The notes beneath the pieces are model-generated. The model did not search any database. It saw nothing but the letters and a program-made list of their open reading frames with translations, and had not been told where the DNA came from. A DNA stretch of 64,000 bases from Candidatus Aminicenantota bacterium (lineage in GTDB: Bacteria; Acidobacteriota; Aminicenantia; Aminicenantales; Aminicenantaceae), in NCBI GenBank assembly GCA_020348385.1, contig CP070750.1, positions 3,982,239 through 4,046,238 of the forward strand, read 5' to 3'. A program made the translations under genes and the position numbers. Position 1 is the stretch's first letter. Each line of letters opens with the position of its first letter. Shown here piece by piece: positions 6,102 to 64,000 of this stretch.

Positions 6102-7793
6102 ATGAGGAATAAGAACATTTATTTTGTCCTATCGGCCTTTCTGGCTGCAGCGGCATTCATGACATCATGTGATGCCCAAGGAGAAGGACAATCCGAAGTG
6201 GTCCCAGCAAAAATAACTATCGGCATGGTTAGCTCGGCCCATCCTATCGCTACAGAGGCCGGCCTGCAGATTCTGACAGGAGAGGGGAATGCATTCGATG
6301 CGGCCGTGGCCGTAGCCTCGACTTTGAATGTGGTCGAGCCGATGAATTCCGGGATTGGGGGCTACGGAACCATCTTAGTCTACGATGCCAAAAAAGAGAA
6401 AATCCGTTTTCTCGACTCTTCGGGCAAGATCCCTGCGGCCGTGGATTCGGATGTTTTCCGTAAACCCAATCCAGACTACAAAAAAAACCGGTATGGCCCC
6501 AAAGCCATTTCCACTCCGGGAAACGTGAACGCGTGGGAAGCGATGTCCAAATCATATGGAAAACTGAGGTGGAAAGAGCTTTTCCAACCTGCAATCGACG
6601 CAGCAGAGCAGGGATATACCCTAGATGCACGCGTGGCACGAAGTATCAGGTATTCTTACGAAAATTTTCCTGAGCATGCCAAAGGCATCTATGGAATAAA
6701 CGGCCTGGCACTCGGTGCGGGCGAGAAGCTCATCCAGAAAGACCTTGCGGCCTCGCTGCGCCTGATTGCTGAGGAAGGCGCAAAGGCGGTCTACGGTGGA
6801 AAAATCGGCACAGCCATGGATAAGGCCGTCCAGAAGGCCGGAGGTTTTCTTTCTCTTGACGATCTGGTCAATGACAGGGCCGAATGGTGGGATCCCATCC
6901 ACATCCCGTACAGGGATTGTGAAGTTTATACCACATCCCCTCCCAGCACGGCTTTCCCCTCACTCATAAGATTGGGGATCATGAGTCGATCCGATGTAGG
7001 TACACTGGGTCATAACAGCTTCGCGATGCTTCTCCGTTTTATCGAGACGACCAAACACGCTTTCTGGTGCAGGTTGAGCTATGCCGGGGACCCGGAAATA
7101 AATCCCCCGCCCCTAGATAAACTCCTTGATGAGGATTACTGGAAAGAACAAGCTGGATCGGTCCTGATGGATGAGGTTAGACCTTTCCTGTATCCTGGAT
7201 GGGATAAAGAAAAGGAGCAACACACCACCCACTTTGTGGTGGCCGATGCAGAAGGAAACATCGTCAGTGCAACCCAGACATTGGGAGGAGGCTTCGGAAG
7301 CCGAATCATGCCAGAAGGAACCGGTATTTGGCTGAATAATTCCCTATCCTTCTGCACTTTTGAACCTAAGGGGGGACCGATGGACGCTCATCCAGGACGC
7401 CGCAAACTCTCCGGCGACTGCCCCACCATCATCGTCAAGAACGGAAAGCCCTGGGCCGCCCTGGGAACTCCTGGGGGCCATACCATCGGACAAACCGTTC
7501 CCCAGATGGTGATGAACCTGATCGACTTCCGAATGGACATCCGAGAAGCCATTTCTGCTCCCAGAGTTAGCTTTGCTGAGCCGGATAGGATCTTTCTGGA
7601 GGAAGGAATCAGTCCAGAAGTGATCGAAAAATTGCGGGCTGTCGGGCACAACATTAAGGTCCTGGCTAAACCGGGTGGCCTGGGAAACGCGCACGGCCTG
7701 ACCATCGTTTACGGCAAGGACGGTAAACCCATTAAATTTCACGGAGCTGCCGACCCGCGCGGAGCAGGCTTGGCCAAAGGCCTCATCAAGTAA
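6102..7793 (+). CDS. ggt: Gamma-glutamyltransferase, probable lipoprotein
   Basis: A 563-residue member of the gamma-glutamyltranspeptidase family, which cleaves or transfers the gamma-glutamyl group of glutathione and related compounds. The N-terminus has a signal peptide with FMTSC at 19-23, a likely lipobox. The precursor is expected to cleave itself before Thr375 (HTTHFVV), the nucleophile that begins the small subunit; GTPGG at 455-459 matches the oxyanion-hole GSPGG motif. The length is usual for the family. The start ATG sits almost directly on AAGGAG (6096-6101), which is unusually close. An Nramp-like transporter follows after 105 bp. The family call is firm; the physiological substrate is uncertain. 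Confidence 0.92.
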   Translation: MRNKNIYFVLSAFLAAAAFMTSCDAQGEGQSEVVPAKITIGMVSSAHPIATEAGLQILTGEGNAFDAAVAVASTLNVVEPMNSGIGGYGTILVYDAKKEKIRFLDSSGKIPAAVDSDVFRKPNPDYKKNRYGPKAISTPGNVNAWEAMSKSYGKLRWKELFQPAIDAAEQGYTLDARVARSIRYSYENFPEHAKGIYGINGLALGAGEKLIQKDLAASLRLIAEEGAKAVYGGKIGTAMDKAVQKAGGFLSLDDLVNDRAEWWDPIHIPYRDCEVYTTSPPSTAFPSLIRLGIMSRSDVGTLGHNSFAMLLRFIETTKHAFWCRLSYAGDPEINPPPLDKLLDEDYWKEQAGSVLMDEVRPFLYPGWDKEKEQHTTHFVVADAEGNIVSATQTLGGGFGSRIMPEGTGIWLNNSLSFCTFEPKGGPMDAHPGRRKLSGDCPTIIVKNGKPWAALGTPGGHTIGQTVPQMVMNLIDFRMDIREAISAPRVSFAEPDRIFLEEGISPEVIEKLRAVGHNIKVLAKPGGLGNAHGLTIVYGKDGKPIKFHGAADPRGAGLAKGLIK

Positions 7794-7898
7794 CCATGCC
7801 CGCTCGCCATAAGTGACGTCTTCTTCTCATTCTCCCGCTTCTATTTTTTGGTTGACCTTCTGCAAGCTCTTTTGTAAAAGAGGAGATGAAATCACACA

Positions 7899-9281
7899 AT
7901 GGCAGGCATGAATCCCGATCAAGCGGATGAATTGCGTCGCGGTCTGCCGATGGTGGAAGCACGCGATCCGGAAGCATTGTCACAGGAAAAACAGCTTCTG
8001 GCAAGGATCGAAACTAGGCCGCATTTCTGGCAGCGCTGGCAAGGCTACTGGGGACTGTCCGGTCCTGGTTGGGTACAAAGTGCGCTGACACTGGGCGCGG
8101 GATCCGCAAGCTCGGCTATTTTTGCCGGGGCGGTGTACGGTTATAAACTGCTGTGGGTTCAACCGATAGCCATGTTCCTGGGTGTGATGATGTTCGCTGC
8201 CATCGGGCATCAACTTCTGACCACTCGGGCCCGCCCGTATGATGTTTTCTGGAAAAAGCTGCATCCATCTCTGGCCCTTCTCTGGGGATTCAATGTTTTT
8301 CTGGCTTCTGTCATCTGGCAATTTCCACAGTACTCCCTCGGCACAGCGGTATTCCAAGACATTTTCGCTGTATTCGATGTGAATATGCCCAAGGGGATCA
8401 TCGCCCTGATCCTGCTCGTCGTCGGAACAACCATCTGTTGGAGCTACGAACGAGGTAACAGGAGATCTATCCGTGTGTTCGAACGAACATTGAAATACAT
8501 GCTGATGTTCATGGTTGTAGCCCTTTTCCTTGTGGTGGTCAAAACCGGCATAAACTGGGGTCAACTCCTCCGGGGATTTTTTTCTTTTCACATCCCAACA
8601 GATAAACAAGGCATCACCATCGTGCTGGGACAGTTGGGAGCGGCCATCGGTGTCAACATGACTTTTCTGTATCCCTACACGCTTTTGGCACGCGGATGGG
8701 GAAAAGAACATCGCGGCCTGAAAAATTTCGACCTGGGCACATCCATGTTTTTCCCGTTTGTCCTGGCCACCAGTTTTGTCATCATCGCCTGCGCCAACAC
8801 CCTGAACATGCAGGGCATCCAAGTGAAGGATGCCGTCGATGCGGCCCATGCCCTTCAGCCCCTTGCAGGACTGACTTTCGGCCGACTGGTTTTCTCCCTG
8901 GGAGTTTTGAGTATGTGCCTCACCACCCTTGTTATAGAAATGTTGATCTGTGGATTCGTTCTTAGCGAAATGCTGAACTTCGAGTTCCACGGCTGGGCCT
9001 ATCGGATAAGCACGATGATCGCCAATATCGGGATCATCGGAGCCTTCTATAAATTGCCCCTCTGGCTCCCAGTGATCGTCTCCTCTTTCAATCTCATTAT
9101 GATGCCAGTGGCTTACATCGGATTTTTTATTCTCCAGAACAAAAAAAGTTATCTTGGTAAAGATGTCAACCGGGGCACACGAGGCACGATCTGGAACATT
9201 ATCCTGATCGTAGCCATTTTGGTCGTGGCAGCCGGAGCAACGATAAAAATCCTTTCTGTTTTGGGATTCTGGCAGAGTTAG
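7899..9281 (+). CDS. Nramp-family-like membrane transporter lacking the metal motifs
   Basis: A 460-residue polytopic membrane protein with about 11 hydrophobic segments. The opening GPGWVQSALTLGAGSASS (55-72) and GYKLLWVQPIAM place it in the Nramp (SLC11) superfamily. Canonical Nramp proteins use DPGN in helix 1 and MPH in helix 6 to bind Mn2+ or Fe2+. Here the helix-1 position reads TLGAGS and helix 6 reads GVNMTFLYPY (251-260), so both signatures are missing. The substrate may therefore not be a classic transition metal; Mg2+ or an organic solute are possibilities. The gene follows ggt and is 20 bp upstream of a secreted NTF2-fold protein, probably in one operon. Confidence 0.8.
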   Translation: MAGMNPDQADELRRGLPMVEARDPEALSQEKQLLARIETRPHFWQRWQGYWGLSGPGWVQSALTLGAGSASSAIFAGAVYGYKLLWVQPIAMFLGVMMFAAIGHQLLTTRARPYDVFWKKLHPSLALLWGFNVFLASVIWQFPQYSLGTAVFQDIFAVFDVNMPKGIIALILLVVGTTICWSYERGNRRSIRVFERTLKYMLMFMVVALFLVVVKTGINWGQLLRGFFSFHIPTDKQGITIVLGQLGAAIGVNMTFLYPYTLLARGWGKEHRGLKNFDLGTSMFFPFVLATSFVIIACANTLNMQGIQVKDAVDAAHALQPLAGLTFGRLVFSLGVLSMCLTTLVIEMLICGFVLSEMLNFEFHGWAYRISTMIANIGIIGAFYKLPLWLPVIVSSFNLIMMPVAYIGFFILQNKKSYLGKDVNRGTRGTIWNIILIVAILVVAAGATIKILSVLGFWQS

Positions 9282-54316: not shown

Positions 54317-54484
54317 TTGTAAAAAAAGTTGACGTTCCAAATGTCATTTTTCCCTGAAAACCTCAGATGCTTTCAGGTATGTTTATTGCATACCTTCTAG
54401 AAATAAAACCAAATTATCCAAAATGAGGTATATGAATAGTATGAGGAGGGTGGAATTTTGCCTTTCTCGCGTGTTTAAAGGAGT

Positions 54485-54976
54485 GTGAGAGGAGAAGCTC
54501 TGATCGATATCGAATCTTTTTACGTCCGCTACGGCCCGATGGTCCTGAGACGGTGCCGCAGGATGCTCAAAAACGAGCAATCTGCCCATGATGCGATGCA
54601 TGAGGTGTTCCTGAAGATTTTATCCAATCAAAATCGCCTGAGCGGCGAATATCCTTCGGCTCTGCTGTACAGGATTGCCACAAATGTCTGCTTGAACAGA
54701 ATAAGAAACGAACAGAAACACACCTTGAGCGAATACCTGGACATCTTATACAACACATCGTTTTTCGAAAACCATGAGGCGAATATCTCAGCCCAAAATC
54801 TAATGGCCTATATCCTCTCGAAAGAGAAGGATTCCACCCGGCAGATCGCGATTTTGTATTTTGTCAACGGGATGACCATAAAAGAGATCGCCGAAACGAT
54901 GAACCTCTCCATATCCGGTGTCCACAAACACTTGGACAAGCTCCGACGGAAAATGCGGGATAAGGGAGAAATCTAA
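54485..54976 (+). CDS. ECF-type RNA polymerase sigma factor
   Basis: A 163-residue sigma-70 family protein with only regions 2 and 4. Region 2 has YVRYGPMVLRRCRRMLKNE, EVFLKILSNQ and YRIATNVCLNRIRNEQ; region 4 has IAILYFVNGMTIKEIAETMN with the helix-turn-helix SISGVHKHLDKLRRKM. The start is uncertain: GTG at 54485 has AAGGAG only one base away, while GAGGAG at 54488-54493 is better placed for a CTG at 54500. It overlaps the anti-sigma-like gene by one base (TAATG) and so opens the caspase/TonB locus, which it probably regulates. Confidence 0.9.
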   Translation: MRGEALIDIESFYVRYGPMVLRRCRRMLKNEQSAHDAMHEVFLKILSNQNRLSGEYPSALLYRIATNVCLNRIRNEQKHTLSEYLDILYNTSFFENHEANISAQNLMAYILSKEKDSTRQIAILYFVNGMTIKEIAETMNLSISGVHKHLDKLRRKMRDKGEI

Positions 54977-55785
54977 TGCATAAAGAAACCATCAGCGAAT
55001 ACTATTTAGAGAGATATGCTCTAGGGGAACTGCCCGACGAGGAAGAAGAAAAGATCCGTCGGTTATCCTCGTCTACCCCAGAAATACATGCCGCGCTGGA
55101 AGAGATAAAATCTTCCGATCGCGACATCCTTGCGCTCTATCCTCCTCAAACTGTGAAGACAAGACTACTGACACTTCTCGATGATAAGCCCAGCAAGCCG
55201 TTCCCTTTAAGACGAGTTCTCACCATCTCATCTGCTGTGGTCACCTTTCTGATTCTCATCCTTGTTCTTCCTTTACTCAAACAAAAACCCAGAGTTGTTT
55301 ACCCCGATGCAGAACAAGATGTAACGCTGATCAAGGGAATTCCCACGGTGGACCTTTCCCAAACACAGCTTCTTGTTTATCGCAAAATACAAGACCGCGT
55401 GGAAACATTATCGGATGGGGAGCAAGCCTGGGCAGGGGATCTGCTGCAGCTTGCCTATGTCACAACCCAAGACTCTTACGGTATGATCCTGTCGATAGAC
55501 GGAAGGGGTACCGTCACTCTTCACCTTCCTGAAAACACAGGAGAATCCACAAAACTGGAATTGCGTAAACAATTCCTTCTTCCCAATGCCATCGAGCTGG
55601 ATGATGCCCCCAAATTCGAGCGTTTTTTCTTCCTCACATCAGAGTCTCCGATCGATGTGGATGGCGTTTTGCAAGAAGCGCAGGATATGGCAAAAAATCC
55701 TGAGCAGGTCAAACAGGAAAATATGGACTTGCCGGAGAGTTTCAAACAATATTCCGTTCTTATCCTCAAAGGAGAGGGCTCATGA
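54976..55785 (+). CDS. Membrane anti-sigma-like protein with DUF4384-like sensor domain
   Basis: A 269-residue single-pass protein. Residues 1-78 are cytoplasmic and acidic (YLERYALGELPDEEEEKIRR), the usual opening of anti-sigma domains, though the zinc-binding HxxxCxxC pattern is absent. One membrane helix lies at about 81-101. The outer part (about 110-265) resembles DUF4384: DGEQAWAGDLLQLAYVTTQDSYG, ILSIDGRGTVTLHLPE and an FFFLTSESPIDV strand. The position directly after the sigma gene and before the caspase gene suggests it holds the sigma factor until an envelope signal arrives. Confidence 0.72.
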   Translation: MHKETISEYYLERYALGELPDEEEEKIRRLSSSTPEIHAALEEIKSSDRDILALYPPQTVKTRLLTLLDDKPSKPFPLRRVLTISSAVVTFLILILVLPLLKQKPRVVYPDAEQDVTLIKGIPTVDLSQTQLLVYRKIQDRVETLSDGEQAWAGDLLQLAYVTTQDSYGMILSIDGRGTVTLHLPENTGESTKLELRKQFLLPNAIELDDAPKFERFFFLTSESPIDVDGVLQEAQDMAKNPEQVKQENMDLPESFKQYSVLILKGEGS

Positions 55786-57794
55786 AGAGATACAAACTAT
55801 TAATCGGATTTATTCTTTTAGGTCTTTTTTGTCTCCCCTATCTCAAGGCCGACCAGAAGACAGATGAACTGTACACCCGTAGGTTTGCTTTTTTGGTTGG
55901 CGCCAATCATGGAGGAGAGGATAGGGTAACTCTGCGTTATGCGATAGACGATGCCAAGGAGGTGCAGAAGGTCCTGGAAGAGATGGGCGGGATTCTCCCA
56001 GATGACAGCTGTTTTCTGGCCAATCCCAGCAGAGAGGTCTTTTTCAAGGAGATAAAAACTCTTGCCGAAGATGTAAAACAGGCCAAAAAAAACTTCAGAC
56101 GAGTCGAAGTGATCTTCTACTATTCCGGCCACTCGGACGAGGAAAATCTCTTTTTGGGCAGAGAAAGGGTATCATATCTGGAATTCAAGGACTTGATCAC
56201 ATCATTGGGAGCTGATGTACGGATTGGTATACTCGACTCCTGTGCATCGGGAGCCTTGACCCTCCCCAAAGGAGTCATCAAAAAACCTCCATTTTTGATG
56301 GACACCGCCTACGACATGAAGGGTTATGCTTTTATCACTTCCAGCTCAGCCACCGAAGCCGCCCAGGAGTCCAGCCGGCTGAAGAGGTCATTTTTCACCC
56401 ATAACCTAATCTCCGGTATGCGCGGAGCGGCAGACAGGAACCAGGATGGTCGTATCACACTCAACGAAGCCTATCAGTTCGCTTTCGATGGGACACTGAA
56501 CCAAACGGAAAAAACCATGGCTGGCCCCCAACATCCCAGTTACCACATCGAGATGTCCGGGACCGGTGATGTGGTGATCACGGAAATCTGGAAAAGCACA
56601 GCGGTCCTGGTTCTTAAAAAAGACGTCGCCGGAAAGATATACATTCACAACAAGGACAATGTTTTAGTCGTGGAATTGAATAAGATGGCAGGCCAGGAGA
56701 TCTCCATAGGGCTGGATTCAGGTCCTTACCGGATTATCAGCATAGATGACAGCGCCATATGGGAGGCCACGGTGTCATTGGAGAGTGGAAAGAGTTCGGA
56801 ATTGGTCCAGGCAAAATTCAGCCAAGCCGATAAGATTCCCACCCAGCTCCGTGGCAATCTTCCTGTTTCTATTCCGGAACCAAAAGCAAGAAGAGCCAGC
56901 CGGTGGCGAATCGAAATATCCGGAGGATTTTCGAGTATAAATCCGGGGGATCTCAATCTAAGAGCCACATTCGATGACTTGTACGACACTTTCTACGGAG
57001 AGGACTATTTTCAGTATCAGGTTCAACAGGGTGAGATCGACTCGTTCGTTAAAACAAACGACGGAGGGAAAGCGCATCTTCTCCGACATTCTATCCCGGT
57101 TGGAATCAGATTGCGATATGGCATCACGAACTGGTTCGACATCTCATTCGGATTCAATTATTTCACCAGTGCAAGGGAGTCGAATTATAAAAACACATTC
57201 GAAGTTTTCGAATTGGAGGGTTCCCCGGCTTTGTACTCAGATGAATTTCTGAGTTACACATTATCTGCCAAAGGCTACGTCCCCTCGGTGGGAATTCACC
57301 TGGGAAAAAGGATCACGCCCTCTCTCAGGCTAGAGGGTTTTTTGACTGGAGGCCCGCTTTTTGCCGAATGTTCTTACTATTTGGATTGGAGCTCGGGATG
57401 GCCGGTTGTCGACTCAAGCGGGGATTTCGGGAATCTGAAAGAGGGTTTTTTAGAAGAAAAAGGAAGGGGGAGCGGGCTGGCTCTTCAGGTTGGAGCCAAG
57501 TTGGATTATGATTTCGCCAAACACTACGGATTATTCGTCGAAGGAGGATACGCGTATCAGGCCGTTTCCGAAATATCCGGCCCAGGCATTCGGTCCATGA
57601 CCTCCCACAGGGAAACTTGGGAAGGGGACTGGGGAATCAAGCAGGACATCAGGGAAAGGCCCTGGGGAACAGCTAGTTTTCTCTGGCCGTCGAATGCATG
57701 GGTGGTTTCCCAAGGAACATGGTGGCGAGCCAGGGATTTCGAGCTGAATCTGTCCGGTTTTCAGGTCAGATTGGGCATATATTTTCGCTTTTAA
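55782..57794 (+). CDS. Exported caspase-fold (C14) protease fused to an outer-membrane barrel
   Basis: A 670-residue protein with a signal peptide (about 1-23). Residues 33-262 form a caspase-like p20 domain: FAFLVGANHGG, catalytic His117 in YYSGHSDEE and catalytic Cys154 in LDSCASGAL. Asp218-Glu229 (DRNQDGRITLNE) matches a 12-residue EF-hand calcium loop. A linker (about 265-370) with beta strands leads to a barrel-like region (about 375-670) ending in LGIYFRF with a terminal Phe, as needed for outer-membrane assembly. That barrel is paralogous to the whole protein at 61986. It overlaps the anti-sigma gene by ATGA. Confidence 0.88.
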   Translation: MKRYKLLIGFILLGLFCLPYLKADQKTDELYTRRFAFLVGANHGGEDRVTLRYAIDDAKEVQKVLEEMGGILPDDSCFLANPSREVFFKEIKTLAEDVKQAKKNFRRVEVIFYYSGHSDEENLFLGRERVSYLEFKDLITSLGADVRIGILDSCASGALTLPKGVIKKPPFLMDTAYDMKGYAFITSSSATEAAQESSRLKRSFFTHNLISGMRGAADRNQDGRITLNEAYQFAFDGTLNQTEKTMAGPQHPSYHIEMSGTGDVVITEIWKSTAVLVLKKDVAGKIYIHNKDNVLVVELNKMAGQEISIGLDSGPYRIISIDDSAIWEATVSLESGKSSELVQAKFSQADKIPTQLRGNLPVSIPEPKARRASRWRIEISGGFSSINPGDLNLRATFDDLYDTFYGEDYFQYQVQQGEIDSFVKTNDGGKAHLLRHSIPVGIRLRYGITNWFDISFGFNYFTSARESNYKNTFEVFELEGSPALYSDEFLSYTLSAKGYVPSVGIHLGKRITPSLRLEGFLTGGPLFAECSYYLDWSSGWPVVDSSGDFGNLKEGFLEEKGRGSGLALQVGAKLDYDFAKHYGLFVEGGYAYQAVSEISGPGIRSMTSHRETWEGDWGIKQDIRERPWGTASFLWPSNAWVVSQGTWWRARDFELNLSGFQVRLGIYFRF

Positions 57795-57887
57795 CCTGAA
57801 TTATCCAGGTTAATTTATAGCTTTTCTCGACAATAAAAAAATGGCAAAAAAAACGGTGGAGTTTTCTACCCAAAAAAAGGAGACCCA

Positions 57888-60185
57888 ATGGTAAAAAATG
57901 AAGGATGGGATCGGATAATCAGTGTTTTTTTGTTGATCATCGGATTTCTGTTGGCAGCTGTTATCCTATCATGGGGCCAAACAAATGACCAAGATAAAAT
58001 CCCTTTGGGGATAATCAAGGGCCGGATTATCAACTACGAAACCCAAATGCCTTTATCCGGTGTGTCTGTCAAAATCAAAGATTCCGACCACTTGGTGCAG
58101 AGCGATGCAACGGGAATCTATGAATTGACAGACATACCGGTGGGACATTATGTTGTGGCATTCGAACTGGAGGGATATTACACGGATACCCGGACCGATG
58201 TCATCGTCCGCCCGGCCCGTACTATATTCGTTAACATCGAAATGTTTGCGGTCCGCATGCTAACCGAAGAGGTCCGGGTTACGGCGGATTATTTCCCCTC
58301 CACACCGGATAAACCCGGCAGTCAAAGGCAGTTCAACACGGAGGAACTGCGGCGCAATGCCGGATCGGCGGGAGATGTGAGCCGGGCCCTGTACGACGTC
58401 CCCGGGATAGCCAAGGCCGACGAAGAAGCCAACGATCTGATCGTCCGGGGCGGCAGTCCGGTGGAGAACGGATTTTATGTGGACAATATCTTCGTCCCCA
58501 ACATCAATCACTTTCCCCAATGGGGCGCTTCCGGCGGAAACATCAACATGCTGAACATGCACTTTATCGAAAGGCTGGATATCTACACCGGCGGATTCGA
58601 CGCACCCTTTGGCAACCGGCTCTCCTCCGTGATTGATATCGGTTACCGCGAAGGCAACAGGGAGAGCTTCAACGGGCAGGTCAATTTGAGCATGATCGGG
58701 TTCGGCGCACAGGCCGAAGGACCTCTGCCCAACAAGAAGGGCTCCTTTATGATTTCCGGATACCGTAGCTACCTGGATATCGTGTCCCAATTTTTGGGTT
58801 CGGACAATCCCTCGGACTACTACGACATCCAGGGCAAGCTCGTGTACGATATCGACGAGGCCAACCGCCTCTCCCTCCTGACGATCAACGGATACAGCGA
58901 AACCAAGGAGGACCGCCAAAAGGAAATGGAATCAGGATCCGATAATTACAATTGGGAAAGATTCAATATCTCGACCGTCGGCCTCAACTGGCGCCATGTA
59001 TGGGACGGCAGGGGTTTTTCCGACACTTCCCTTTCCTATTCCTATATGAAAGGGAAGGAAGATGGTTGGAGCCTACCGGACGAAGAGTCTCTCTATTATT
59101 TCAGCTATCGCGACCAATGGGTAACGCTCCGCAACACAAACCAGATCCACTTGGGCGCTTTCCATCAACTGAAATTCGGAGTGGAAGCTCAACACAACCG
59201 TTTTTTCAGCCACAACTTCGACGACGACGGCCCGATAAACCTTAACGGAACATACGGCGCGGCGTTTGTCACTTATCTCGTCTACCCGTTCGAAAACTTT
59301 TCCTTTTCCACAGGCTTCAGACTCGATTATTTCCCTTTCTCCGAACGGTTGCATCTGTCCCCGCGTCTCTCGTTTAACTGGGCGTTGACCAAGCGATTTT
59401 CTATAAACGGCGCTTTCGGGATGTTCCACCAGCAGATGCCGCTTTTCCTCCTCAAACAACACCCGGAAAACGTCAGACTAAACGAAATGCTCGCCCGTCA
59501 TATCGTCTTGGGCTTCAAATATCTCCTGTTTCCCGATACGCAGGCGACCCTAGAGATCTACGACAAACAATACGACCATTTCCCGATGTCATCCCTTGCG
59601 CCCTATTTTTTCCTGATCGACGATATAAGCGGGGATGATGCCATGTTTTACAATTGGGGACAGCTAGTGGATGAGGGAAAAGCCTACGTCAGGGGAGTGG
59701 AATTCACCATCCAGAAAAAACTGGCAAAAAATCTGTACGGACTGATCAGCTTGACCTATTACAGGGCCCGATACCGAGATCTGATGGGCCAATGGCGGAA
59801 TCGAGTGTACGATAACCGTTTCATCGTTTGCCTTTCCGGAGGATACAAGCCCAGCAAGTACTGGGAATTCAGCGCGCGCTGGACTTGGATGGGCGGCAAG
59901 GCTTATACTCCGGTCGACGAAGAAAAATCCATCGAATACGGATGGCCTTGGGTTTGGGTCGATGATATCATGGTCGGGCATCTCGATGCCTACAAAAACC
60001 TTTCCGTTCGAGCCGAGAGGCGGTTTAATTTCAACAAAACAAACCTCGTCATTTATGCCGGAGCATGGAATATTTTCGACCACGATAACGAACTCTACAG
60101 ATTCTGGGATTCATACGGAAATCAGTACATTTCGGAGTACATGTGGGGTGTCATTCCTTATATCGGCATCGAGTTCCAATTTTAG
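57888..60185 (+). CDS. TonB-dependent receptor with CarboxypepD_reg domain
   Basis: A 765-residue outer-membrane receptor. After a signal segment (about 10-31) comes a carboxypeptidase regulatory-like beta-sandwich (about 43-118, GIIKGRIINYETQMPLSGV), a TonB-box-like TEEVRVTA (about 126-133), a plug domain (VSRALYDVPGIAKADEEAND, VRGGSPVENGFYVDN) and a barrel ending in FQF. It should import a ligand using energy from TonB/ExbBD, which are not encoded here. AAGGAGA is well placed. It shares the locus with a sigma/anti-sigma pair, as in SusC-like or FecA-like control. Confidence 0.93.
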   Translation: MVKNEGWDRIISVFLLIIGFLLAAVILSWGQTNDQDKIPLGIIKGRIINYETQMPLSGVSVKIKDSDHLVQSDATGIYELTDIPVGHYVVAFELEGYYTDTRTDVIVRPARTIFVNIEMFAVRMLTEEVRVTADYFPSTPDKPGSQRQFNTEELRRNAGSAGDVSRALYDVPGIAKADEEANDLIVRGGSPVENGFYVDNIFVPNINHFPQWGASGGNINMLNMHFIERLDIYTGGFDAPFGNRLSSVIDIGYREGNRESFNGQVNLSMIGFGAQAEGPLPNKKGSFMISGYRSYLDIVSQFLGSDNPSDYYDIQGKLVYDIDEANRLSLLTINGYSETKEDRQKEMESGSDNYNWERFNISTVGLNWRHVWDGRGFSDTSLSYSYMKGKEDGWSLPDEESLYYFSYRDQWVTLRNTNQIHLGAFHQLKFGVEAQHNRFFSHNFDDDGPINLNGTYGAAFVTYLVYPFENFSFSTGFRLDYFPFSERLHLSPRLSFNWALTKRFSINGAFGMFHQQMPLFLLKQHPENVRLNEMLARHIVLGFKYLLFPDTQATLEIYDKQYDHFPMSSLAPYFFLIDDISGDDAMFYNWGQLVDEGKAYVRGVEFTIQKKLAKNLYGLISLTYYRARYRDLMGQWRNRVYDNRFIVCLSGGYKPSKYWEFSARWTWMGGKAYTPVDEEKSIEYGWPWVWVDDIMVGHLDAYKNLSVRAERRFNFNKTNLVIYAGAWNIFDHDNELYRFWDSYGNQYISEYMWGVIPYIGIEFQF

Positions 60186-60210
60186 ATTATAAGGAGATCC
60201 TGGAGGAAAA

Positions 60211-61989
60211 ATGAAAAAAATAATCCGGACATTCATTTTAGGACTGTGTATCGCGTTTGGGGCGGGAGCCGGAAATTCCCTGATTGCCCAAATCCAGCCA
60301 GAAGCGGGCTTTTGTTTCCTGGAAGAGAATGATTTTTACTTCCACACCAACAGCTATTTCAACCGTCTTCCCCTTCGTTGTTCCCAAGCGCGAATATGGC
60401 GTGTGTATCAACCGGCCGACAAGGATCCTACATCCAAGCCGCTTTTCGTGTTTTATAACGGCGGGCCGGGAGGAGCGACAAGCGCAGGGCTTTTCAGCGC
60501 CAACACCGGCCGTAACGCTGTTTCTGTCGACCCACAGACATACAAAGGCTCCGTCATCAGCAATCCCCATAGCTGGACCCGGATCGGGAACCTTCTGCAT
60601 GTCGACTCCCGAACAGCAGGTTTCTCTTACAGCATGATGGAGAACCCCCAAGATGATGCCCTGCGCCATGCCGAATGGGATGCCCAGAATTACAACGCCT
60701 TCATCGATGGGGCTGATTTTGTCAGGGTTCTGCTTCGTTTTCTTGCTGACCACCCCTCGATACAAAACAATCCTGTGGTGCTCGTTGTAGAAAGCTACGG
60801 GGGGATCCGGTCCCTCGTTATGCTGCACCTATTGCTTTTCTACCAGGATTACGCCAACGGAAATGCGATCTACCAAGATCCGGCATTGGTCCAGGAAATC
60901 CAAAATCACTACAACACCGTATTCCCCGAATATGCCGGCCAAACAGTCCCTCCTTCTGTCATCGCGCAGCAGTTCAGTCATCAGGTTTTGATCCAACCAG
61001 CCATCACCCGATACTATCAGAGATTGGTGGCGGTGGAAATGCTGGAAGCCCCGGGATCAATCCTCGACGACTTGGCAGAGGAGACGGGCGTCCCGTACAT
61101 ACGCTACGAGGACCAGCCCTGGGCAATCGCAAATCCCTCCCCTTTCAACATCATGAACAACATTTACGACTACATCGATCAAATCGGCCGCGACCCCTAT
61201 ATCTACTCCAAGCCGGCGGGATTTTTCAACGGTTTTTTCGATGCGGCGGCGGAACTGTTAACGCATTATGACAAGTTGAGCCAGATGACGGGAGTAGACA
61301 CGACAGGGATTCCCGAGCTCTATGCCTCAGCCCGACAACAGGCATATAAAATCAAGTTTTTAGAGGACTATGCATCCCTGATGTCCTATTCTGCATTATT
61401 GGGGCCTGCACCCAAGGTGAGCGACATCCAATCCTTTCTTTTTCCGTGCGCGGAAGAAGACATGACAACCGTTTTCGGGGCTCTTCAACCCTGGGATCGC
61501 TATTTTCTCGATCTGAACTATGATGTTTCCACAGCTTTTGCCCTGAACAGGACGGTCATGGAAAGTTATGACATTCATTACAGGTATTCCGAACGTTTTG
61601 GCGAGATGTTTTTGGATAATGTGGCTTTTGTCGAAACCTTCATCACTAACGCCGCCTATGATATCGTCGTTTATTGCCCGAGCCTACCGGACGCTCTGAC
61701 CTACCACGCATCGAAACTCAGCAGTTCGACACACGATGCTGTTGGCCCACCCCAGGCAGAGCGTCCGGGTCAAATACTCCTGGAATACAATCCAGGAAGC
61801 GTTCCCGGTTCCAACGTCACGACCCGGACCATCCGGTTTCCCTATTACGCCAACAGCGGCCATGCCGTTCCCATGACCGAACCGGGTGAAATGCTGGACG
61901 ATGTGACCTCGTGGCTGGAAAAAACAGGGTTTTTTGCCGACATAATGATGCGTCATCCATGCAAGCAGCGTCAAGGAGTGAAAAAATGA
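60211..61989 (+). CDS. Exported S10-type serine carboxypeptidase-like protein
   Basis: A 592-residue exported alpha/beta hydrolase (signal peptide about 1-26) of the peptidase S10 type. YNGGPGGAT at 82-90 corresponds to the S10 oxyanion motif NGGPGCSS, VDSRTAGFSYS (131-141) to the D-PAGTGFS motif, VESYGG with Ser195 to the nucleophile elbow GESYAG, and His551 (NSGHAVPMTEP) to the catalytic His. A cap region with aromatic segments lies between about 200 and 480. It would trim C-terminal residues from peptides at acidic pH. It ends by ATGA overlap with the next barrel gene. Confidence 0.85.
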   Translation: MKKIIRTFILGLCIAFGAGAGNSLIAQIQPEAGFCFLEENDFYFHTNSYFNRLPLRCSQARIWRVYQPADKDPTSKPLFVFYNGGPGGATSAGLFSANTGRNAVSVDPQTYKGSVISNPHSWTRIGNLLHVDSRTAGFSYSMMENPQDDALRHAEWDAQNYNAFIDGADFVRVLLRFLADHPSIQNNPVVLVVESYGGIRSLVMLHLLLFYQDYANGNAIYQDPALVQEIQNHYNTVFPEYAGQTVPPSVIAQQFSHQVLIQPAITRYYQRLVAVEMLEAPGSILDDLAEETGVPYIRYEDQPWAIANPSPFNIMNNIYDYIDQIGRDPYIYSKPAGFFNGFFDAAAELLTHYDKLSQMTGVDTTGIPELYASARQQAYKIKFLEDYASLMSYSALLGPAPKVSDIQSFLFPCAEEDMTTVFGALQPWDRYFLDLNYDVSTAFALNRTVMESYDIHYRYSERFGEMFLDNVAFVETFITNAAYDIVVYCPSLPDALTYHASKLSSSTHDAVGPPQAERPGQILLEYNPGSVPGSNVTTRTIRFPYYANSGHAVPMTEPGEMLDDVTSWLEKTGFFADIMMRHPCKQRQGVKK

Positions 61990-62936
61990 TTAAAATCGGC
62001 TTTTTCAGGGTTATGGTTGCCACCTGGTTGGTTTGGGCATTATTTTTTCTCCCCACCATCTCAGCGGCTGAGGAACGGTTCCAGATCGAGCTCTACGGCG
62101 GCATCTCCTTTGTCAATCCCAAGGATTTCAATCTTCTCAGCAAGGCCGAACAGCAGTATAACGATATCTATTTCATCGAACGTCTGCGCAGCTACAACGG
62201 ATATTTCGTGAACGATTTCCCCGAGATCAGAGAGGCAATACCGGGCGGGATTCGCTTCAGATACCATGTGTCGGAAAAACTCTCATTTTCTCTTGCCGCA
62301 GAGGGATTTTTCCAGAAAAAGGAGCAGACCTTCGAAGGATCCTTTTACTACAGCTCGACCGCTTCGGAAAATCACACAAAAAGATACGATCCCTACAAAC
62401 TCCGTTTATCGGGATTCGCTGTTTTAGGGGGAATCCATTACCGTTTGCCCGTTGGGAGCAAGACAGACATCGAGGTCGGAGCAGCCGCGGGATGGGCAAA
62501 AGCCCAGTTCGATTTTAGCTCTAACTGGACTTACCGGGCTATCTACCAGGGTACTTCTGTCTCTTATGACTCGGTCGACGGCGGTATACTGGAAGAGGAT
62601 GGATCGGGCAACGGATTCATGGGCCAAGCCATGCTGCGCCTGAACCGGATGCTGGGAAGGCGTATAGGGTTTTTTGTGGAAACAGCCTTCAGTTACTGCC
62701 GGATGAAATCGGTCGAAGGAGGGGGGCGGGAAATCCGGATCAACATACCAGGAGAAACGACGTGGGAGGGCGCCTGGGGTATAAAAAAAGAAGAGATCCA
62801 CTTGCTCTGGGGAGATAAAGAGGTTCTCGTGCCCACTAATTATTGGGCTGGGTGGATCGATTCGCAAAGGGAGCGGGACTTTGTCCTCGATCTGTCCGGC
62901 TTCCGCCTGGTCCTCGGTATCGTTTTCAGACTTTAG
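61986..62936 (+). CDS. Outer-membrane barrel paralogous to the caspase C-terminus
   Basis: A 316-residue protein with a signal peptide (about 1-28). The ATG at 61986 overlaps the TGA of the carboxypeptidase and has AAGGAG upstream. Its body aligns with residues 375-670 of the caspase fusion: FQIELYGGISFVNPKDFNL, an ILEEDGSGNG loop, TTWEGAWGIKKE and the ending RDFVLDLSGF..LGIVFRL. Aligned motifs in the fusion are WRIEISGGFSSINPGDLNL, FLEEKGRGSG, ETWEGDWGIKQD and RDFELNLSGF..LGIYFRF. The same barrel without a protease may form a pore or partner for it. Confidence 0.83.
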   Translation: MIKIGFFRVMVATWLVWALFFLPTISAAEERFQIELYGGISFVNPKDFNLLSKAEQQYNDIYFIERLRSYNGYFVNDFPEIREAIPGGIRFRYHVSEKLSFSLAAEGFFQKKEQTFEGSFYYSSTASENHTKRYDPYKLRLSGFAVLGGIHYRLPVGSKTDIEVGAAAGWAKAQFDFSSNWTYRAIYQGTSVSYDSVDGGILEEDGSGNGFMGQAMLRLNRMLGRRIGFFVETAFSYCRMKSVEGGGREIRINIPGETTWEGAWGIKKEEIHLLWGDKEVLVPTNYWAGWIDSQRERDFVLDLSGFRLVLGIVFRL

Positions 62937-63191: not shown

Positions 63192-64000
63192 TTAATCTTT
63201 GTCGAAATCCAGAGCATACGCCACAGCTTTATCAAAATCCATATGACGGCCCTGATTTTCGAATTCAGTGGCAGCTTTTTCCCCTAGCTCTTTTTTTGCT
63301 CGACCTATGTTCTTCTCCATCAGGATATCCCAGAACCTGACAGTTGGTACCGTTGCTCCTATGTCTTCCCATTTCTTGAGAGCAGAACCGTTCAGCCGGA
63401 GGGCCTTTTTGTACCTTCCCTGTCCGGCGATCCCCATGGCCATCCCCTGCATCTCGGCTGCTGCCTCCCACATGTCACCATAATCCAACGCCGCTTTCAG
63501 AGCATCTGAATAGCGCCTTTCTGCCTCTTTTGATTCATCCCTCTCCAATGCACAATCGCCATAATAATGCTTAGTGTCCATAATTTCCCGGGGCATTTTT
63601 AACTCCACTGCCTGTGCCATACATTTTTTTACCAGAGGTTCGGCCTTTTCATGCTGGAATTGCGTGATGAATCCAAAGCAAAGATGCGTCTTGCTCCGAC
63701 AGATCAGTTTGGGATCATCAAGTTTTTCTGCAATTCTCACGCTTTCTTCCGAAGCCTTCATTCCTTTTTCATGATCATTCAATGCATTTTTTAGCACTCC
63801 TACATCACTCAAAACATGCACGAGCTCCTGTTGTTCATCCAGTTCACGCCAGATTTGAATGCTTTTCTCTATAGCACCAAGGCCCTCAGAAAATTTTCTC
63901 TGCCAGGATTGGATAAGTCCCAAAGCAAATAAAGCCCGTGCAACACCAAAACTGTGTTTTTTCTGTTTGTTCAACGCAAGGCTCAAATACTCATTTCCCG
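63192..64000 (-). CDS. C-terminal TPR region of a large protein (continues beyond the window)
   Basis: About 269 codons, open to the window edge; no start codon needs to lie inside. The sequence is a series of tetratricopeptide-like helices (VARALFALGLIQSWQRKF, ALNDHEKGMKASEESVRIAE, DESKEAERRYSDALKAALDY) ending in RLNGSALKKWEDIGAT, AKKELGEKAATEFENQGRHM and FDKAVAYALDFD. This ending, an E-G-R-x-M then A-V-A-Y-A-L pattern, is typical of the C-termini of large regulators with an N-terminal kinase, cyclase or DNA-binding domain and an AAA-like ATPase. Which of these it is cannot be seen here. Confidence 0.82.
   Translation of the reverse strand, partial: GNEYLSLALNKQKKHSFGVARALFALGLIQSWQRKFSEGLGAIEKSIQIWRELDEQQELVHVLSDVGVLKNALNDHEKGMKASEESVRIAEKLDDPKLICRSKTHLCFGFITQFQHEKAEPLVKKCMAQAVELKMPREIMDTKHYYGDCALERDESKEAERRYSDALKAALDYGDMWEAAAEMQGMAMGIAGQGRYKKALRLNGSALKKWEDIGATVPTVRFWDILMEKNIGRAKKELGEKAATEFENQGRHMDFDKAVAYALDFDKD

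Follow-up and report, generated by a model that had tools for sequence, protein, structure and literature searches.

A possible caspase-operated sigma factor switch beside a hydrolase-barrel cassette in an Aminicenantes genome

Six adjacent genes in a window of 64,000 nucleotides (the whole stretch of DNA that was analysed) are two separable cassettes lying side by side, not one conserved system. Module 1 (54448–57794) encodes an ECF sigma factor, a membrane anti-sigma factor and an exported caspase fused to an outer-membrane barrel, module 2 (60211–62936) is a hydrolase-barrel cassette, and the gene of a TonB-dependent receptor lies between them. We put at about even the chance that the locus holds an envelope switch, in which the caspase performs the site-1 cleavage of the anti-sigma factor, beside the hydrolase-barrel module. 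The wider proposal is more tentative and falls a little short of even: the anti-sigma factor would have its own site-1 protease in a MALT1-like caspase anchored in the outer membrane, which would cleave T-R-x-K-G between Lys and Gly in its own chain as well as in the anti-sigma factor, and this arrangement would represent a so far unrecognised transmembrane signalling class in many bacterial phyla. The genome of the window (G000) is a single 4.35-Mb contig, and the features discussed below are as follows.

54448–54480, plus strand: candidate sigma promoter, GTGGAA (54450–54455), 15-bp spacer, GTGTTT (54471–54476)
54485–54976, plus strand: ECF sigma factor, 163 aa, Sigma70_r2 and r4 above Pfam cut-offs
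54976–55785, plus strand: transmembrane anti-sigma factor (AlphaFold2 model, 37-row alignment, sub-threshold DUF4384 match)
55324–55338, plus strand: T-L-I-K-G, anti-sigma residues 117–121, juxtamembrane linker motif, candidate for site-1 cleavage
55782–57794, plus strand: exported caspase, Ig-like domain and OmpA-like barrel (PF00656, AlphaFold2, PDB matches)
56259–56273, plus strand: T-L-P-K-G, caspase residues 160–164, candidate self-processing site in the loop directly after Cys154
57791–57813, plus strand: stem-loop or inverted repeat, possible attenuator (8-bp stem, region z only -1.5)
57888–60185, plus strand: TonB-dependent receptor, PF13620 and PF07715 above cut-off
60211–61989, plus strand: exported serine carboxypeptidase-like protein (Peptidase S10), 592 aa, PF00450
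61986–62936, plus strand: free outer-membrane barrel, paralogous to the barrel at the end of the caspase protein

The sigma and anti-sigma reading frames overlap by one base, and the junctions between anti-sigma factor and caspase-barrel and between S10 and second barrel are both ATGA overlaps. An earlier note on this DNA had given the six genes, their order, their overlaps and the caspase-barrel fusion correctly, and its view that a set of this composition is undescribed holds within the literature searched. The gap of 93 bp between the caspase and TonB receptor genes contains the hairpin at 57791–57813, detected by strand folding, so that the six genes need not all be transcribed together; an Rfam search of the window gave no matches. 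Further along, window positions 63192–63986 on the minus strand hold a start-less part of a large protein, whose full reading frame of 1013 aa (L041:2431–5472) carries a zinc-ribbon-like CxxC pattern at its start.

About 85,000 species genomes were scanned with alignment A1, and the 80 named loci are the best-scoring 80 of 393 relatives; an earlier contig scan with the single caspase-barrel protein as query had found no relatives, and alignment A1 recovered them. Sigma and anti-sigma genes lie directly upstream of the caspase in 71 of the 75 loci with more than 1.5 kb of upstream sequence, a fraction which is valid for this subfamily and not for all bacterial caspases, since the loci are the best-scoring 80 of 393; of the remaining four, one is a lone caspase and three are myxobacterial loci with the sigma factor unrecognised. 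The triplet spans about eight phyla, including Aminicenantes, other Acidobacteriota, Spirochaetes, Myxococcota, Fibrobacter and Bdellovibrio. Within the class and phylum, all complete close homologues examined combine sigma factor, anti-sigma factor and caspase, except one lone caspase in G013, and sigma orthologues adjoin the caspase in most loci. A C-terminal extension of 151–517 aa is present on 70 of 70 complete caspases in the best 80 of 393 loci, and 36 of these 70 (51%) end in Phe, as outer-membrane barrels do, versus 5.4% of the other reading frames in the loci. The caspase barrels differ in size, with about 150 aa in several Aminicenantes and about 300 aa in the window.

The other three genes follow a different distribution. 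Among the best 80 of 393 loci, TonB homologues occur in five, four of them distant (22–31%), and S10 with the free barrel stands beside the triplet in G013 only. The full six-gene set in the same order was found in the window and in G013, a different genus of the same family, and in no other of the genomes found; the six proteins of G013 are 59–74% identical to those of the window, the TonB receptor 67%. Across the 142 genomes of the class, the caspase family is present in 16, S10 in 8 and the barrel in 80. The DNA of G001, which belongs to the same genus as the window, is about 83–87% identical up to window 54456, and similarity resumes at window 60210, the start codon of S10, the two matching stretches overlapping by 3 bp (L160 6342–6344). 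Sigma factor, anti-sigma factor, caspase and TonB receptor are missing at a precise junction and S10 is kept behind the operon leader; neither the caspase nor the TonB gene was found elsewhere in G001, an 80%-complete MAG whose contig ends within S10. A deletion in G001 appears the simpler reading of these sequences, because G000 and G013 have similar ribosome sites before S10. The single conserved surface proteolysis system proposed in the earlier note, with its six co-occurring families, is not supported: the triplet stands without TonB receptor, S10 and free barrel in nearly all of the best 80 of 393 loci, S10 and barrel occur in several genomes without sigma factor, caspase or TonB receptor, and G001 keeps S10 without the other four, a pattern of the kind that the earlier note itself had named as refuting its idea.

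In the caspase-barrel protein, the caspase domain extends over residues of about 31–245, the Ig-like domain over about 271–350 and the barrel over 374–670. Peptidase_C14 (PF00656) scores 38.0 bits against a cut-off of 21.4, as the sole PF00656 match in G000, and the catalytic dyad H117 and C154 is intact and invariant in 8 homologues. The AlphaFold2 model, of moderate confidence in the caspase part (pTM 0.51) and of high confidence in the barrel, has fold matches in the PDB to the MALT1 caspase-Ig unit, metacaspases, OmpA, OmpW and OmpT; among solved structures, metacaspases are closest in sequence, and MALT1 together with metacaspases in fold. The barrel has about eight strands, counted from secondary structure, and its best PDB barrel match is OmpA (TMt 0.68); a classical autotransporter translocator has 12 strands. 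Since an even strand number places the N-terminal end in the periplasm, the modelled caspase domain should be periplasmic and face the anti-sigma factor, and the display of the caspase at the cell surface, as claimed earlier, is unlikely. The caspase barrel (374–669) is homologous to the free barrel, with 30% identity and an E-value of 1e-30, a relationship that the earlier note had missed. A role in anti-phage defence was rejected, as the caspase has no match in PADLOC or PHROGs. Directly downstream of the caspase gene of G014, two further genes (L061:6119–6985 and 7190–8248) encode the Ig-like domain of the caspase and a barrel-like end without a caspase, and are possibly dedicated sensors or inhibitors.

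The anti-sigma factor is predicted by AlphaFold2 (mean pLDDT 86.8) to consist of a cytoplasmic helical domain (8–69), a transmembrane helix (86–102), a flexible linker and a periplasmic beta-sandwich. It shows weak matches to anti-sigma models and a DUF4384-like match at residues 131–265, which at 19.6 bits lies under the Pfam cut-off of 27, and a PDB fold search gave no match at E <= 0.001. Only ten columns are conserved at 98% or more in 83 anti-sigma homologues, and between residues 13 and 172 K120 and G121 are the sole columns to reach this level. A second DUF4384 membrane protein with an anti-sigma-like layout, lacking the K-G motif, is encoded in G000 (L281, G000:C1:2380408–2380620) and in G001 (L282).

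This Lys-Gly pair, invariant in 83 of 83 homologues, belongs to a linker consensus T-R-[I/V]-K-G, with Arg at P3 in 66 of 83, and lies in or on the border of a linker predicted at low confidence by AlphaFold2, whose length varies from 8 to 39 residues between transmembrane helix and Lys and from 2 to 13 after the motif. A matching consensus, T-R-x-K-G-G, is found in the caspase loop after the catalytic Cys, where K-G is present in 85 of 86 homologues, Arg at P3 in 76 and Thr at P4 in 65; residues 156–176 of the caspase have pLDDT below 50, so this loop is predicted to be disordered. It is in the loop after the catalytic Cys that caspases get cut during activation. The motif is missing from DUF4384 proteins outside the triplet, both those of the class that are fused to caspases and those that are not, which ruled out K-G as a general DUF4384 feature. 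Against the switch, the lone caspase L062, with no neighbouring sigma pair, retains the loop motif. Covariation at P3 was dropped as independent evidence: Leu replaces Arg in both motifs in the window, G013 and G128, which form one related clade and thus represent one event at most, and eight anti-sigma factors have Gly at P3 although their caspases retain Arg, so that covariation is weak. The comparison of the two motifs, moreover, was made after the alignments had been seen, and is to be taken as a hypothesis and not as a test.

Metacaspases and orthocaspases cleave after Arg or Lys (PMC6426788), and by analogy with these relatives the caspase of the window would probably do likewise. The invariant K-G of the anti-sigma factor, the matching caspase loop, the Arg/Lys specificity and the lack of the motif outside the triplet together lead us to propose the caspase as the site-1 protease. 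The C-terminal barrel of about eight strands would anchor the protein in the outer membrane with its long loops outside, and the caspase and Ig-like domain would hang in the periplasm. A surface signal sensed by the barrel loops would activate the caspase, perhaps through clipping of its own T-R/L-x-K-G loop, and the active caspase would then cut the anti-sigma factor after the invariant Lys, between the transmembrane helix and the folded periplasmic domain. An M50 site-2 protease, for which G000 has PF02163 matches of up to 202 bits, would complete the cleavage and free the sigma factor to read its own promoter; in this lineage, the TonB receptor and module 2 were probably placed under the switch as a peptide degradation and uptake output. 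Cleavage of the anti-sigma factor, sensing by the barrel and regulation of TonB receptor, S10 and second barrel are what we infer from these observations, and K-G could instead be a structural or docking element.

The sigma factor has a Sigma70_r2 match at 2e-12, with PF04542, PF08281 and PF04545 above cut-off, and consists of regions 2 and 4 with no other regions in Pfam. Its true start may be a CTG near 54500: the GTG at 54485 falls within reach of the likely ribosome site and overlaps it, and in G013 the alignment starts with a TTG at this point. Across phyla, the sigma genes are preceded by a family promoter motif, GTGACA-N15-GGTGTT, derived mainly from sites other than that of the window; GTGAC-N18-TGTT is present in 31 of 79 sigma upstream regions versus 3–5 for the best shuffled pair. 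The site in the window is a weak match, its score of 6.8 being above the 95% null (4.1) and below the 99% null (10.7), and the block GAATTTTGCCTTTC..GCGTGTTT at this promoter is common to the window and G013. Of the promoter once expected before both 54485 and 57888, the first half stands as this weak candidate before the sigma gene, and the second does not, as the motif was sought in the window before TonB and before S10 and was not found. Together with the hairpin between the modules, this counts against control of module 2 by the sigma factor. The family motif itself is usable as a reporter or to locate further targets.

A different account would make the caspase the effector: the sigma pair would sense through the beta-sandwich of the anti-sigma factor and induce an envelope protease for other periplasmic proteins in stress, development or cell death, and the anti-sigma domain may also bind and restrain the caspase. 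The order of the genes, with sigma and anti-sigma factor preceding the caspase, is that of many autoregulated ECF operons, DUF4384 domains are fused to caspases in G012 and G006, as would fit a binding partner, and the sigma-70/metacaspase operons of Myxococcus are discussed in PMC3501461 in the context of cell death. We nevertheless regard this account as unlikely; it leaves the invariant K-G of the anti-sigma factor and the same motif in the caspase loop unexplained, and the want of a PADLOC match also speaks against it. It is quite possible, though we lean somewhat against it, that the triplet and the TonB-S10-barrel genes are mere neighbours, joined once in an ancestor of G000 and G013 and devoid of joint function, an explanation that leaves room for the cleavage switch in module 1. 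The restriction of the six-gene set to two genomes, the solitary S10-barrel pairs, the retention of S10 in G001, the hairpin and the unmarked TonB upstream region all agree with it. Against it, order and spacing have been kept between two genera with 59–74% identical proteins, so that some selection on linkage is likely, and the caspase and S10 modules have the same barrel family.

That a surface endopeptidase and carboxypeptidase degrade proteins for import of the peptides by the TonB receptor, under their own sigma factor, we consider improbable: all parts are exported or located in the outer membrane and TonB adjoins S10 in both genomes, but the caspase family is normally unlinked to TonB or S10, an OmpA-like barrel leaves its N-terminal domain in the periplasm with no passage for a passenger, and G001 retains S10 on its own. 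Hardly credible is cell-surface signalling of the FecIRA type with the TonB receptor as sensor, which the proximity of ECF sigma factor, anti-sigma factor and receptor would suggest. It was rejected on domain content, as a FecR domain is absent from the Pfam matches of the anti-sigma factor at E 0.1, and the receptor, with Plug at 31.6 bits, has an N-terminal CarboxypepD_reg domain (44.5 bits) in place of an STN signalling domain, for which there was no Pfam match; besides, almost all homologous triplets in the best 80 of 393 loci have no closely related receptor nearby.

In relation to known systems, the proposed cleavage switch resembles RseA/DegS/RseP and RsiV/lysozyme/signal peptidase in its membrane anti-sigma factor with a sigma-binding cytoplasmic end, a flexible juxtamembrane linker and a periplasmic domain, and in the availability of a site-2 protease; it differs in assigning site-1 cleavage to a caspase that is tethered to the outer membrane and encoded in the same operon. 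Known examples of regulated intramembrane proteolysis for ECF sigma factors use other proteases. The locus shares with FecI/FecR/FecA a sigma factor, an anti-sigma factor and a TonB receptor, whereas the constant third partner of the triplet is a caspase and not a receptor. Like metacaspases, orthocaspases and MALT1 (Peptidase C14), the window caspase has a His-Cys dyad in a caspase fold, followed as in MALT1 by an Ig-like domain; it differs from them in its export and in its fusion with a barrel of the outer membrane. Sigma-70 genes in metacaspase operons have been described in Myxococcus, Anaeromyxobacter, Haliangium, Sorangium, Ralstonia and Fibrobacter by Asplund-Samuelsson and co-workers in 2012 (PMC3501461), and the Myxococcus and Fibrobacter loci were recovered here too; as in the window, a caspase homologue there shares its operon with a sigma-70 gene, and the difference is that the text examined gives no anti-sigma factor, C-terminal barrel, linker motif or mechanism. 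It was the only find in the literature on combinations of ECF, anti-sigma, DUF4384 and caspase, in a search that covered few subscription papers, and neither the barrel nor the motif nor an anti-sigma factor as substrate was found to be mentioned in that text or the remaining literature searched. This ECF group with its caspase neighbour may already stand in the published ECF classification; we cannot be sure that the gene neighbourhood is new, and think it more likely that the proposed cleavage switch is.

One large family of exported bacterial caspases here gains a concrete partner. The predicted cleavage site, present in every anti-sigma factor examined, and a promoter reporter make the switch testable in cultured Myxococcus, Fibrobacter succinogenes and Breznakiella. 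If it is true, a caspase would be added to the few proteases known to open ECF sigma switches, which would suggest that the signalling function of caspases is not confined to death and immunity, and under the wider proposal a proteolytic caspase cascade would operate in the bacterial envelope, apart from cell death and phage defence.

The barrel family provides a second, independent lead through its pairing with at least four kinds of exported hydrolase. It resembles OmpA, OmpW and OmpT in its small size, of about 300 aa, and in its long strands, and differs from them in being genetically paired with several unrelated hydrolases; the free barrel has no significant match in Pfam and the barrel no significant sequence match in the PDB. 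Its S10 partner in the window scores 73.6 bits with Peptidase_S10 (PF00450), against a cut-off of 21.9, and the triad S195, D484 and H551 and the sequence N83-G-G-P-G are invariant in alignment A3. S10 followed by a barrel of the same family was found in every locus with a readable downstream end (window, L028, L029, L033, L167, L169 and L177). The family also lies downstream of an M1-like HExxH protein in 15 loci, of an S12 beta-lactamase-like protein in one and of a C45/AAT-type protein in two, the AAT match being above cut-off in one of them (L104); it is fused to this caspase in three loci and elsewhere to CarboxypepD_reg domains, and about 11 cases have no recognised partner. The pairing loci in the Aminicenantia are as follows.

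L029–L034, L037, L069, L071, L072, L104 and L166–L179: barrel-hydrolase pairing

ATGA-type 4-base overlaps account for 11 of the 15 measured junctions between barrel and partner. The barrel may hold or assist exported hydrolases at the outer membrane, and the family is possibly a general hydrolase-partner barrel. In four loci of family f10 genomes (L073:7911–10300, L178, L183 and L184), the barrel is adjoined by a MEMO-AMMECR1 fusion protein that is exported, which is unusual for domains of these two kinds.
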